A DNA stretch of 42,616 nt from an uncultured Mucilaginibacter sp. (GTDB lineage Bacteria > Bacteroidota > Bacteroidia > Sphingobacteriales > Sphingobacteriaceae), in assembly GCF_903893715.1 (NCBI RefSeq), contig NZ_CAITNG010000036.1, positions 1-42,616 on the forward strand, given 5' to 3'. Shown here piece by piece: positions 34,794 through 38,172 of the stretch. The notes beneath the pieces were generated by a model. It did no database searches and was not told the DNA's origin. It saw nothing but the letters and a program-made list of their open reading frames with translations. The translations under genes were made by a program, and so were the position numbers. The stretch's first letter is position 1. Every line of letters starts with the position of its first letter.

Positions 34794-35777
34794 CTATATC
34801 AAACCATTTTCCTGATACCATTTCAGGGTTTCGGTAAGGCCTAGATGCAGGTTGTATTTCGGCAGGTAGCCCAGATCTGTTTTGGCATGTTCTATACTGC
34901 AGGCCCAGTTGGGCGCGGTAAGTTCGCCGAGCTTTTCGGGGTTGAGGGCAGGCGTATCTTTCCTGTTGGCATAAAGGTAGGCTAAAATGTTTGCCAATAT
35001 CTTTACTAAGAATAGGGGCAGGTGTATTTTGACGGTCTTTTTGTGCAGGATGAATTTAGTCAGGTCGGCAAGCTCATAGCGGTCGTACGCGTTGCCGTCG
35101 CTGATGTTATAGGCGTTATGGGTTATGTTCGAAAATAACGCCTGTATGGTTACTGCGGCCAAATCCTTCACGTAAACAAAACTGAGTTGCTGGTCTATTT
35201 TGCCTATATAAGGCTCAATGCCCTGGCTTATTTTTTTTAGGAGGATGTAAATGTCCTTGTCGCGTGGGCCATACACTGCCGTTGGCCTTATCGTGATAAG
35301 CGGGAGGGATATGAGCAGCGCCAATTTCTGTTCAGCAAATGATTTGCTTTGTCCATACGCCGAAACCGGGGCATGCGGTTTGTTATCTTCAATGATTTCG
35401 CCCAATTGCGCGGGCCCTAAAGCCGCCAGGCTACTGATAAAGACAAACTTTTTTAATGGGATGTTGGCTTTTGTAGCTGCGAATGCAAGGTTATAGCTGT
35501 AATCAGCGTTAACCACGTTATAGGCTTCGGCGGTTTTGGCTTTGGTTGTACCTGCGGCATGGATGATGTAGGTATATTGTTTCTCCTCAAGTTCCTTTAT
35601 CAGGGCGTCAAGGTTCTCAAAATCTAAGTAGACGTATCGAATGTTGAGCTGCTTGAGGTGCGCGATATTGCTACTTTGACGCACTGCAGCATATACCTCC
35701 AAATTATTTTTTAAAGCCGCCTCAATTAAATGAAAACCCACAAAGCCGCTGGCGCCTGTTATTAAAACCCGCTCCAT
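34794..35777 (-). CDS. NAD(P)-dependent epimerase/dehydratase-like reductase, candidate ceramide reductase
   Basis: This 327-residue extended SDR has the nucleotide motif TGASGFVGFHL (7-17) and the catalytic YxxxK in SAYGQSKSFAEQKL. It begins one base inside the stop codon of the GNAT-like gene (TAATG overlap), so it is translationally coupled to spt's operon. In Caulobacter the ceramide pathway uses an NAD-dependent epimerase/dehydratase-family enzyme, CerR, that reduces the 3-keto group after acylation, next to spt and the acyltransferase bCerS. The same trio is present here in order spt-GNAT-SDR. The sugar-nucleotide epimerase fold is the alternative, but no sugar gene is nearby. Confidence 0.75.
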   Translation of the reverse strand: MERVLITGASGFVGFHLIEAALKNNLEVYAAVRQSSNIAHLKQLNIRYVYLDFENLDALIKELEEKQYTYIIHAAGTTKAKTAEAYNVVNADYSYNLAFAATKANIPLKKFVFISSLAALGPAQLGEIIEDNKPHAPVSAYGQSKSFAEQKLALLISLPLITIRPTAVYGPRDKDIYILLKKISQGIEPYIGKIDQQLSFVYVKDLAAVTIQALFSNITHNAYNISDGNAYDRYELADLTKFILHKKTVKIHLPLFLVKILANILAYLYANRKDTPALNPEKLGELTAPNWACSIEHAKTDLGYLPKYNLHLGLTETLKWYQENGLI

Positions 35778-36892
35778 TAGATGGCTTTTTCGTAAATGCG
35801 GTATTTTTTGTAGGGGTCGCCTTTGATGGCTTGAATGGCCTTATTTACCATGTCATTATTTTCCAGTGTCCACCCGGCTTCGGCGTGTAAAAAGCCTTTG
35901 GCTTTGTATTTTTTTATGATAGTACCATAGAGAACCGCCTCGATGCCCATTTTACGATAACCATCGATAACCCCGAGTGCATAGATACGGATGGATGTTA
36001 TCTTTCGCTTGTTCATCAGCAGCTTGAAAATGCCTGTCGGGAATAAACGTCCCCGTTTTATGGTCTTGAATATTTCGTTGTAGTTAGGTAAAGCGAGTCC
36101 GAAGGCTACAATCTTCCCTTCGTGCTCGGCTACGAGCGCGAAGTCGGGGTCGAGTATGAGTTTAAGGTCTTTGGCTACGTAGTCAAACTCTTCGTTGTTC
36201 ATCGGGACGAATCCGCTATTCTTGTCCCATGCTTTGTTGTACACCTCGCGCAATTTGGAGGCTTCGTTTTTAAAATCTTTCAGGTTTACCTTTCGGACGG
36301 TAACATTGCTGCGTTTTAAACGCTCCGTCAGGCTATCCAATAAGCGTACCGATTTATCATCATAGTTTTGGCCGTCCCAATGCCAGGCTATCAGGTCGAT
36401 GTTTTTGGTGAAACCTGCTTTTTCCAACAGTTCGATGTAATAGGGCGCATTGTAGGTCATCATCAACACCGGCGGGCTATCGAAACCTTCTATCAATAAA
36501 CCGCAGGGCTCGTTGGTAGAGAAGTTAACCGGGCCTATCATGGTATTAAGGCCGCGCTCTTTTAACCAGGTGGCGGCGGTATCGAATAACAGTTTAGCGG
36601 TTTCCCAATCGTTTATACAATCGAAGAAGCCAAAAAATCCGTCGTTCTTGTGGTTAAACTCGTTTGATGCATTGTTTTGTATGGCAGCAATACGACCGGT
36701 TACCTTATCACCATTGTACACCAAAAAGCATTGCAACGAATTATGTTTGTGGAAAGGGTGGATGGTGAGTAAGTCGCGCTGGGCGATGAACAACTCGGGC
36801 ACATAGTTCGGGTCGTTTGCATACAGATGGTGTGGGAAATCAATAAAAGCACCAAGCTCTTTTTTTGATTGAACCGGAACAACTGTCATCAT
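35777..36892 (-). CDS. GNAT-like acyltransferase, candidate bacterial ceramide synthase
   Basis: This 371-residue soluble protein has GNAT-fold features: an N-terminal stretch VPVQSKKELGAFIDFPHHLYANDPNYVPELF, a central MIGPVNFSTNEPCGLLIEGF region, and a C-terminal acetyl-CoA-fold part with ALGVIDGYRKMGIEAVLYG and LENNDMVNKAIQ. It is much longer than a simple N-acetyltransferase. It lies 74 bases after spt, and its stop overlaps the start of the SDR gene by one base. Caulobacter ceramide synthase (bCerS) is also a GNAT-like acyltransferase beside spt. N-acylation of 3-ketosphinganine is thus the proposed role, by context and family; direct proof is lacking. Confidence 0.72.
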   Translation of the reverse strand: MMTVVPVQSKKELGAFIDFPHHLYANDPNYVPELFIAQRDLLTIHPFHKHNSLQCFLVYNGDKVTGRIAAIQNNASNEFNHKNDGFFGFFDCINDWETAKLLFDTAATWLKERGLNTMIGPVNFSTNEPCGLLIEGFDSPPVLMMTYNAPYYIELLEKAGFTKNIDLIAWHWDGQNYDDKSVRLLDSLTERLKRSNVTVRKVNLKDFKNEASKLREVYNKAWDKNSGFVPMNNEEFDYVAKDLKLILDPDFALVAEHEGKIVAFGLALPNYNEIFKTIKRGRLFPTGIFKLLMNKRKITSIRIYALGVIDGYRKMGIEAVLYGTIIKKYKAKGFLHAEAGWTLENNDMVNKAIQAIKGDPYKKYRIYEKAI

Positions 36893-36920
36893 TACAATAA
36901 TTTTGGAAGGTTTATATACT

Positions 36921-36958
36921 CCGTATGCAAATTATAAAAAATTATAACATGCATACGG
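36921..36958. promoter_or_regulatory. Stem-loop between spt and the GNAT-like gene
   Basis: CCGTATGCA (36921-36929) pairs exactly with TGCATACGG (36950-36958), and the inner TTATAA/TTATAA (36932-36937, 36942-36947) continue the stem around a 4-base loop. It sits in the 74-base space between the spt stop (36967) and the next start (36892). It has no U tract, so it may be an RNA-processing or stability element or an operator rather than a terminator. Confidence 0.5.
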
Positions 36959-36966
36959 AAAAATGT

Positions 36967-38172
36967 TTAGATACTCTCTTTTACCGAGATAACACCTAAT
37001 TTTCTGAAGGTTTTGGACAGCTTGTCAACAGCTTCATCAATTTGGCTGAAGGTATGGGTAGCCATAAGCGAGCAACGTAGCAGCGAAGAATCGGACGGTA
37101 CGGCAGGCGAAACCACCGGGTTTACAAAAACACCATCTTCCTGCAGCATATTGGTTGCCAGGAATGTTTTGTCGTTATCGCGCACGTATATCGGTAATAT
37201 CGGGCTTTCAGTATTACCTATATCAAAGCCTTCTTCGCGCAACAAGGTAGTGGCGTAGCGGGTATTTTTCCACAGGTTTTCGATGTGGTGTGGTTCCGAT
37301 TCGATGATATTCAAAGCTTCCAATACACTTGCTACTGATGCGGGCGTCATGCTGGCGCTGAATATCAAAGAACGGGCTTTGTGTTTGATGTATTCGATGG
37401 TATCCTTATCAGCAGCGATAAAACCACCCAATGAGGCGAAAGACTTACTGAAAGTACCCATGATAAGGTCGACATCGTCGTTCATATCAAAATGCGATGC
37501 CGTACCCGCGCCATTAACACCGATAACGCCGAGGCTGTGCGCATCATCAACCATGATATTGGCACCGAATTCCGTTGCTAATTGAGCCAATTCGGGCAGT
37601 TTTACAATATCGCCTTCCATGCTAAAAATACCATCTACCGCAATCAGCTTAACTGCATCTTCGGGGAGGTTTTTTAGTTTGGAACGCAGATCGTCCATAT
37701 CGTTATGCGCGTATTTGATGACGCGCGAAAACGAAAGGCGGCTACCATCGATGATGGAAGCATGGTCGTACTCATCTAATATCAAATAATCGTTACGCCC
37801 GGTGATGCATGATAAAACACCTAAATTAACCTGAAAGCCTGTACTGAAAATCACTGCGGCCTCTTTGCCCACGTAACGGGCGAGACGGTTCTCCAATTCT
37901 ACGTGGATATCGAGCGTGCCGTTCAAAAACCTTGAACCCGCGCACCCGGTACCGTATTTTTCAATTGCTTTTTTTGATGCTTCTTTTATCCTGGGGTGGC
38001 TTGTTAAACCTAAGTACGAGTTAGAACCAAACATTAATACGCGTTTGCCGTCGATCATTACTTCGGTATCCTGACCTGATTCTATCGGTCTGAAATAAGG
38101 ATAAATGCCTTTTTCTTGTATTTGGATCGCTTCCTGAAATTGCGCGACCTTCTCATGTAATTTTTTACCCAT
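36967..38172 (-). CDS. spt: Serine palmitoyltransferase
   Basis: This 401-residue PLP enzyme condenses serine with a fatty acyl-CoA (or acyl-ACP) to 3-ketosphinganine, the first step of sphingolipid synthesis. From memory it closely resembles the Sphingobacterium enzyme throughout. Cofactor residues are visible: the stacking His137 in [10 protein letters not shown], Asp209/Asp210 and His212 in VDDAHSLG, and Schiff-base Lys243 in [12 protein letters not shown]. The glycine-rich [13 protein letters not shown] and the C-terminal [19 protein letters not shown] match the alpha-oxoamine synthase family. Other family members (KBL, BioF, ALAS) are less likely because of this resemblance. It is the first gene of an operon with the GNAT and SDR genes. 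Confidence 0.96.

Follow-up and report, generated by a model that had tools for sequence, protein, structure and literature searches.

Gene content of the predicted ceramide operon

The sequence analysed here (the window) is a 42,616-nucleotide contig from an uncultured Mucilaginibacter sp. of the family Sphingobacteriaceae (Bacteroidota). In its open reading frame list, positions 34794-38172 hold genes for a serine palmitoyltransferase (SPT, gene spt), a GNAT-type acyltransferase and a short-chain dehydrogenase/reductase (SDR), in one row and all on the minus strand. The features of this segment are as follows:

36967..38172, minus strand: spt, serine palmitoyltransferase (401 aa; NF047600 and PDB match to SPT)
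35777..36892, minus strand: bcerS-type tandem GNAT, predicted ceramide synthase (371 aa; identity to YghO, co-occurrence, structural model, fusions)
34794..35777, minus strand: cerR-type extended SDR, predicted 3-ketoceramide (or 3-ketosphinganine) reductase (327 aa; PF01370)
36893..36966, minus strand: predicted stem-loop in the spt-GNAT gap (RNA minimum free energy and shuffles)
38200..38207, minus strand: TACTTTTG, candidate Bacteroidota-type -7 box (match to the TAnnTTTG consensus)

The spt-GNAT gap (36893-36966) is 74 bases long, the GNAT stop and the SDR start have one base in common (TAATG), and the spt ATG lies 35 bases downstream of the start of TACTTTTG. A first-pass annotation of this DNA had described the same layout, with the same spacing, overlap, strand and upstream element, and is confirmed in this respect. 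The element fits TAnnTTTG, which we take to be the consensus of the Bacteroidota-type -7 box. Since the two strands of the window together hold 43 matches to this pattern (about 0.15 for every 300 bases on a single strand), and no TTG was found within 32 bases upstream of TACTTTTG, its status as a promoter is still a guess.

With good confidence, we read 34794-38172 as an SPT, a tandem GNAT of the CerS/YghO type and an SDR of the CerR type that are predicted to make dihydroceramide, with acylation most likely as the first step after SPT. From homology, gene content and order, co-occurrence, fused genes and a hairpin that folds better than shuffled sequences, we infer reactions, a reaction order and lipid products as follows. 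SPT would condense serine with an acyl thioester, yielding 3-ketosphinganine; the GNAT protein would N-acylate this product, most likely directly, to 3-ketodihydroceramide, whose 3-keto group the SDR would reduce with NAD(P)H. Downstream of spt, the predicted stem-loop probably controls how much SPT is made relative to the GNAT and SDR products, and the N-acyl chain would finally be hydroxylated at C2 by an Scs7-like enzyme encoded nearby. The assignment to ceramide, a lipid familiar chiefly from the membranes of animals and plants, is strong on sequence grounds, but it extends a known pathway.

Co-occurrence of the operon genes

The distribution of the three genes was examined in 111 Sphingobacteriaceae genomes, with SPT scored above the NF047600 cut-off, operon-type GNAT at E < 1e-130 (the next best match being 1e-44) and SDR at E up to 1e-25. 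spt was present in 86 of the 111 genomes, and operon-type GNAT was found in exactly those 86, the remaining 25 having no such gene. The SDR was found in 73 of the 86 spt genomes and in none of the 25 spt-less ones. In 85 of the 86 spt genomes, spt was followed by the GNAT gene on the same strand within less than 1 kb; in the exception (G299, locus L074), the SDR gene comes directly after spt and the GNAT gene is on another contig. The SDR gene adjoins the GNAT gene in 72 of the 73 genomes that have it. Because the genomes are related, these counts are not independent events; the two adjacency counts put the clustering beyond chance, and the spt-GNAT-SDR cluster is the usual Sphingobacteriaceae arrangement, not a peculiarity of the window genome. 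The nearest relative of that genome is M. rivuli (G378), of the same genus.

Loci of named genomes were taken as the best 80 of 401, mainly from Mucilaginibacter and Pedobacter. Six Pedobacter loci (L130, L132, L135, L136, L150 and L151) carried the GNAT gene without a true spt on the stretch fetched. In a sample of 296 genomes of the phylum, 288 had some GNAT match at E 0.001; only 11 passed the SPT cut-off, all of the window's own class, and the SPT-like genes of other classes scored below it. Proteins named as Ignavibacteria were among the close matches (42-45% identity), and Rubrobacter and Streptomyces also show the spt-GNAT-SDR order.

Identity of the three proteins

The predicted SPT passed the equivalog cut-off of the NCBIfam model NF047600 (749.5 bits, cut-off 640). 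Its best PDB matches were the SPT chains 8guh and 3a2b (633 bits), presumably both from Sphingobacterium, and cysteate acyltransferase 28eh scored far below them (234 bits, E 4e-68). The TFSK motif (K243) was invariant across six aligned SPTs, and the E. coli SPT was 35% identical to that of the window. An enzyme dependent on pyridoxal phosphate could in principle use another amino acid, either cysteate, leading to sulfonolipids, or alanine or glycine, leading to 1-deoxy bases, with the GNAT and SDR completing that lipid. Sulfonolipids are known in Bacteroidota, as an excerpt of PMC9304779 states, and weaker GNAT paralogues are present also in spt-less genomes. However, a cysteate acyltransferase or sulfonolipid identity was rejected on the equivalog and PDB scores, operon-type GNAT occurs only alongside SPT (its 30% identical paralogue being found with and without SPT), and both the Scs7-like hydroxylase and an inositol-phosphate synthase track spt, so that a product of this other kind is very improbable.

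The window GNAT aligned over its full length with YghO from an E. coli plasmid copy (36% identity, 378 columns, E 2e-74), and was 33% identical to a GNAT encoded in a Roseomonas sphingolipid locus and 38% identical to a Rubrobacter GNAT in an spt-GNAT-SDR row. Its Pfam GNAT match was weak (28.5 bits, cut-off 20.7), it had no NCBIfam match at E 0.001, and its single match among PDB sequences was a capsid protein at E 1. The first-pass annotation held that a structural match to a different acyltransferase class would refute its reading. This did not occur, as the predicted structure is a tandem GNAT fold (pLDDT 89.8); no bCerS structure turned up in the PDB sequence search for a positive match, and no eukaryotic CerS-type fold stood among the matches listed for the model, which excludes nothing. 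A role as a general housekeeping paralogue was rejected because the 30% paralogue of the window genome (G000:C33) occurs with and without spt, whereas the operon type occurs only with it.

In a GNAT tree of 30 rows (29 different), the window protein fell into a 22-row group with YghO, Roseomonas and Sphingomonas (support 87/85). A second clade (100/100) held B. finegoldii, a Prevotella, the Bacteroides-like genomes G230 and G238 and the operon GNAT of genome G033, and a third (100/100) held the window genome's own paralogue and the second G033 GNAT. The window grouping persisted at 88/80 when halves of fusion proteins (see below) were added (33 rows), with a program warning that the two outside clades are joined by long branches. 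These trees bear on the statement of the first-pass annotation that the operon, if confirmed, would establish which enzymes act as ceramide synthase and reductase in this group. A strong form of the statement, in which the window pair serves the whole of the Bacteroidota, is favoured by comparable arrangements (spt-GNAT or spt-GNAT-SDR) in genomes from other classes of the phylum. Yet the GNATs of B. finegoldii and a Prevotella form their separate clade at about 30% identity; G230 and G238 have only the Bacteroides-type GNAT at E 1e-10, and their spt stands apart; and in G033 a Bacteroides-type GNAT (L037:8368-9489, minus strand; L057:8995-10131, plus strand) fills the slot between spt and the SDR gene. 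The last arrangement suggests two interchangeable ceramide synthase clades. Moreover, CerS and CerR of B. fragilis (BF9343_4218 and BF9343_4240) are already references in print (PMC10865984, in excerpt). We judge the strong form improbable, and in its present wording the statement is not supported. From the positions of B. finegoldii, G230 and G238, we infer that BF9343_4218 belongs to the Bacteroides clade.

A tblastn search of plasmid records with the GNAT matched 44 records. Of these, 31 were compared against 60 of 392 SPT records, with 13 left out (9 listed, 4 unlisted); at least 22 of the 31 listed rows had an SPT match within 15 kb, and a Sphingomonas row counted as a miss does have an SPT-like aminotransferase gene nearby. 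Three proteins of 602-663 aa (P0121, P0122 and P0123, one of them named Planctomycetaceae) appear to carry two tandem copies of the operon-type acyltransferase.

The SDR matched PF01370 (107 bits) and had no match to PF00106, the classical SDR family, at E 0.001; its motif reads TGASGFVG. S116, Y141 and K145, which we take to be the catalytic Ser-Tyr-Lys set, were invariant in 19 aligned SDRs, as was TGxxGxxG. The epi product of the E. coli plasmid was 30% identical to the window SDR, and in PDB the complex I NDUFA9 chains gave a weak match (E 1e-4). In the SDR tree, the proteins of G033 and of a Bacteroides-like genome joined that of the window (100/99), and the Rubrobacter and Roseomonas rows were long. 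SDR matches on plasmids comprised 77 records, 30 of them listed. Among the 14 best placed (112-192 bits), 10 were clustered with both spt and GNAT and the other 4 were Bacteroidales records; the next 16 listed rows reached at most 90 bits, and several of them were annotated hpnA. Horizontal replacement of the SDR gene was considered because two genomes from other families match it at 56-57% identity and the congener G099 at 53%. This is not needed: the SDR is simply fast-evolving, given identities to M. rivuli of 94% for SPT, 88% for GNAT and 68% for SDR.

A predicted hairpin in the spt-GNAT gap

The 74-base gap folds with a minimum free energy of -21.9 kcal/mol (z -6.8), and none of 200 shuffles was as low. 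A z below -3 was obtained for 51 of 53 spt-GNAT gaps of relatives (named loci, 40-250 bases) and for 58 of 65 with limits of 25-250 bases and unnamed loci included. The comparison gaps gave 17/124 for other co-directional, 2/19 for divergent and 11/16 for convergent gene pairs. Elsewhere in the cluster, such gaps numbered 9/10 between the genes for inositol-phosphate synthase (MIPS) and the PgpA-like protein, 7/18 for SDR to MIPS, 3/10 for GNAT to MIPS and 1/24 between the CDP-alcohol gene and the hydroxylase gene. A stem search in 55 gaps found 6 to 20 pairs, and 15 pairs were reached in 44% of them vs 1% of random window segments. The arm sequences were diverse, with 32 of 37 arms (at least 12 bases) distinct and a mean identity of 0.29. 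The predicted hairpin is kept in shape, not in sequence, across Mucilaginibacter and Pedobacter loci.

An origin from a repeat element was rejected on the same arm diversity and because an arm occurs once or twice per locus (14 rows printed), and a classic intrinsic terminator was rejected because a T run follows the hairpin in just 4 of 51 cases. No Rfam family was found within 34000-39000. We read the hairpin as a structure that may protect the spt mRNA or reduce read-through.

The wider cluster: a hydroxylase and an inositol module

The first-pass annotation saw in the three genes what looked like a full bacterial ceramide pathway. The core operon with its bCerS and CerR counterparts bears this out by homology, trees and co-occurrence, but "full" undersells the loci of many relatives, which extend to inositol-phosphate and hydroxylase genes. 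In these relatives, the operon continues into genes for inositol-phosphate synthase, PgpA-like, GtrA-like and DUF5686 proteins, CDP-alcohol phosphotransferase, DUF4833 protein, Scs7-like hydroxylase and PAP2 protein, not all of them in each. Among 69 named loci longer than 15 kb, inositol-phosphate synthase occurred in 59, DUF5686 in 58, CDP-alcohol phosphotransferase in 56, the hydroxylase in 55, SDR in 48, PgpA-like in 28 and DUF4833 in 25; spt was scored in 67, four of which are matches of 28-32% and not spt. In the window, and likewise in M. rivuli, a DUF5686-DUF4833-hydroxylase cassette faces the operon instead:

32722..33339, plus strand: Scs7/FA2H-like fatty acid hydroxylase, predicted ceramide fatty-acid 2-hydroxylase (205 aa; PF04116, 70.9 bits, cut-off 31)
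32124..32714, plus strand: DUF4833 protein, recurring member of the wider cluster (PF16117, 173 bits; adjoins the hydroxylase gene in relatives)
29562..32102, plus strand: DUF5686/carboxypeptidase-regulatory-like protein, recurring member of the wider cluster (PF18939, 181.9 bits; in the spt cluster of relatives)

The hydroxylase gene lies 1.5 kb from the operon. Up to E 1, the protein matched only two PDB sequences, both Scs7, the best being 4zr1 (E 1.5e-36, over its residues 93-276). A strong homologue (E < 1e-70, a limit chosen after the scores were seen) was present in 80 of the 86 spt genomes vs 1 of the 25 spt-less ones, and the enzyme is predicted to 2-hydroxylate the N-acyl chain of ceramide. 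The DUF5686 and DUF4833 proteins are candidates for lipid export or head-group work.

Inositol-phosphate synthase, whose gene is a usual neighbour of the operon in Mucilaginibacter, was found in 62 of the 111 genomes, all of them spt-bearing. Together with the CDP-alcohol phosphotransferase, PgpA-like and PAP2 genes, it probably forms an inositol-phosphoceramide module in the relatives. Because this synthase was not found at E 1e-50 in the window genome (G000), the window species is probably without an inositol head group; nor was it found at that limit in M. rivuli (locus L071). Sphingobacterium has 2-hydroxy acyl chains. Ceramide phosphoinositol has been reported in the same genus, where an excerpt of PMC9246714 describes homologues of the known inositol cluster as absent or infrequent, with moderate homology to an alternative cluster. 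For the group covered by that study, the present locus offers a hydroxylase candidate for ceramide, together with a co-located module for inositol-phosphoceramide.

Order of acylation and reduction

By analogy with Caulobacter, the first-pass annotation had acylation precede reduction. This is favoured indirectly by SPT-GNAT fusions and by the repeated absence of the SDR, and is not proven. One fused protein was used to search 395 genomes of the phylum. It matched 301 at 1e-100, and among the matches listed, which scored above about 560 bits, at least three genomes (G208, G164 and G128, with proteins of 830, 820 and 795 aa) have a single open frame that spans SPT and GNAT. The fusion frames, all from other classes of the phylum, are:

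L156:2351-4813, plus strand: SPT-GNAT fusion, 820 aa
L157:2591-5083, plus strand: SPT-GNAT fusion, 830 aa
L158:1203-3590, minus strand: SPT-GNAT fusion, 795 aa

These proteins contain no internal stop; their N-terminal halves are 46-47% identical to the window SPT and their C-terminal halves 37% identical to the window GNAT, and Pfam recognised the aminotransferase domain in all three and the GNAT domain in two. The remaining long SPT-GNAT rows were interrupted by one or more stops and represent adjacent separate genes. Because SPT is fused to the acyltransferase rather than to a reductase, direct acylation of the SPT product is favoured, though not proven, and the three fused-gene genomes suggest that addition of the second fatty chain likely precedes reduction.

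The SDR is also the member of the set that is repeatedly missing. Thirteen of the 86 spt genomes (12 of the same genus and G304) had no SDR match at E 1e-25 genome-wide, so either another enzyme can replace the SDR or reduction is not always needed. In seven loci of SDR-less genomes (L028, L029, L068, L069, L073, L160 and L161), spt and GNAT were present, the SDR was absent and no replacement reductase was found; the GNAT gene is followed there by inositol-phosphate synthase (six) or DUF5686 (G304). An SDR tblastn match in L028 (49 columns, E 0.16) was dismissed as noise. In a 78-row SPT tree, 22 rows came from loci without SDR, and six gains or losses of SDR are required, at least five on well-supported branches; absence was judged here on the fetched stretch, and some rows are one genome under two names. 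The pattern is compatible with reduction as an optional late step, and just as well with replacement of the reductase, for example by an enzyme like BT_0972 of B. thetaiotaomicron.

The same genes could also work in the eukaryote-like order, with the SDR reducing 3-ketosphinganine to sphinganine before the GNAT acylates it to dihydroceramide. According to excerpts of PMC11087976 and PMC9386255, one group proposed reduction first for Caulobacter and the matter is still argued; BT_0972, of another SDR type, converts 3-ketosphinganine to sphinganine (PMC9278070, in excerpt), which speaks for reduction first in part of the phylum. The window SDR, moreover, shows no visible signal and runs straight into the Rossmann motif, leaving no room for an export signal, so the spatial argument for acylation first in Caulobacter, which relies on a periplasmic CerR, is not visible here. 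This decides little, because the proteobacterial CerR counterparts in the alignment also begin near the Rossmann motif without a signal. Against the eukaryote-like order stand the fusions of SPT to GNAT and not to SDR, the absence of SDR from 13 spt genomes but of GNAT from none, and the GxxxGxG motif described for BT_0972 in the same excerpt, the window SDR being a PF01370 protein without a PF00106 match. We regard reduction first as rather unlikely.

A more far-reaching version of acylation first is offered tentatively, as somewhat less than an even chance. SPT and GNAT would form one functional unit, a 3-ketoceramide synthase that in some lineages is a single polypeptide; acylation before reduction would be the rule in these bacteria and the reductase an optional late step; SDR-less Mucilaginibacter would retain 3-ketoceramides or rely on a reductase of unrelated origin; the set would be tied to a ceramide 2-hydroxylase; and the hairpin would set the SPT:GNAT ratio. 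If so, bacteria would have a compact hydroxyceramide pathway with a eukaryote-like ceramide 2-hydroxylase.

Besides the missing SDRs and the activity of BT_0972, several observations weigh against the proposed pathway. The SDR is only 24-31% identical to its proteobacterial counterparts within a large superfamily, and the SDR model fits sugar epimerases as well as anything. The link to Caulobacter runs via the E. coli plasmid copy and Roseomonas, not via the Caulobacter proteins themselves. Only three fusions were seen (a minimum), none in the window's own class. As for the hydroxylase, its gene is found no more than 20 kb from spt in 57 of the 80 genomes, six spt genomes are without a strong homologue (two of them have weaker ones), and weaker homologues (E 1e-38 to 1e-45) turn up in 3 of the 25 genomes that have no spt.

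The order of acylation and reduction in bacteria is disputed in print. With a natural SPT-GNAT fusion, a single protein and a single assay would suffice for a test, and the presence of the SDR in some Mucilaginibacter species but not in others amounts to a natural deletion series, the locus of M. conchicola (L148) being an example without it.

Other genes in the window

At 34565-34789 on the plus strand, a small gene for a CDGSH iron-sulphur protein (PF09360, 64.6 bits) stops four bases short of where the SDR gene ends. This frame, the three operon genes and a GH53 gene were all that could be recognised within 34500-39631; acpR and aasR were not among them, and the rest of the genome was not searched for these two. 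At 24557-28277 (plus strand), genes for carboxyltransferase C/D and A/B, LamB/YcsF and Nramp-like proteins stand in a row, which we take to resemble a 5-oxoprolinase operon. Glycan hydrolases (GH127, alpha-L-rhamnosidase, GH43, GH53, GH2) are scattered at 7-819, 7332-10058, 28367-29407 and 38621-42087.

Comparison with known systems

Caulobacter crescentus has the same three functions, encoded by spt (CC_1162), CerS/bCerS (CC_1154, presumably CCNA_01212) and CerR (CC_1164, presumably CCNA_01222), with a GNAT-type acyltransferase and an epimerase-type SDR. Caulobacter adds acpR and aasR, whereas the window has three genes in one row with cerS between spt and cerR. CC_1154 and CC_1164 are needed for dihydroceramide in Caulobacter (PMC11324152), and yghO and epi of E. 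coli BL21 are their counterparts (PMC9386255), both as stated in excerpts. The E. coli locus spt-acpR-epi-aasR/yghO resembles the window in the identities of YghO and epi given above, but comprises five genes, with yghO on the opposite strand. The pathway and the clustering of spt, bCerS and CerR are already described in excerpts of PMC11334938 and PMC11087976, and the window operon is a new member. As excerpted, PMC11334938 also states that in Bacteroidota the three genes do not lie near one another, which holds for the Bacteroides-like G230 and G238 but not for Sphingobacteriaceae, and PMC11324152 that bacterial cerS always lies in another operon than the remaining genes. The position of the window cerS goes against the latter rule; the single transcription unit is putative, and the hairpin may uncouple this gene. 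Among the titles and abstract starts listed from open-licence literature, none describes an SPT-GNAT fusion, the joint Sphingobacteriaceae cluster or a Bacteroidota FA2H/Scs7-like gene.

Bacteroides, with its CerS, CerR and BT_0972, shares phylum and product class with the window, and the SDR of a Bacteroides-like genome falls into the window SDR clade. The Bacteroides GNAT seen, however, belongs to a different clade, spt stands apart and BT_0972 has another SDR motif. The inositol-phosphoceramide cluster BT_1522-1526 of B. thetaiotaomicron has its likeness in the relatives of the window, which also carry inositol-phosphate synthase, CDP-alcohol phosphotransferase and PgpA-like genes, but joined to the ceramide operon; locus tags in B. 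thetaiotaomicron place BT_1522-1526 apart from spt (BT_0870), and the synthase was not found in the window genome or its nearest relative. FA2H-like enzymes are functional in myxobacteria, according to an excerpt of PMC10002949. The window hydroxylase is comparable to these enzymes, to mammalian FA2H and to yeast Scs7, whose catalytic region it matches, but is a bacterial protein of 205 aa that is genetically tied to spt.

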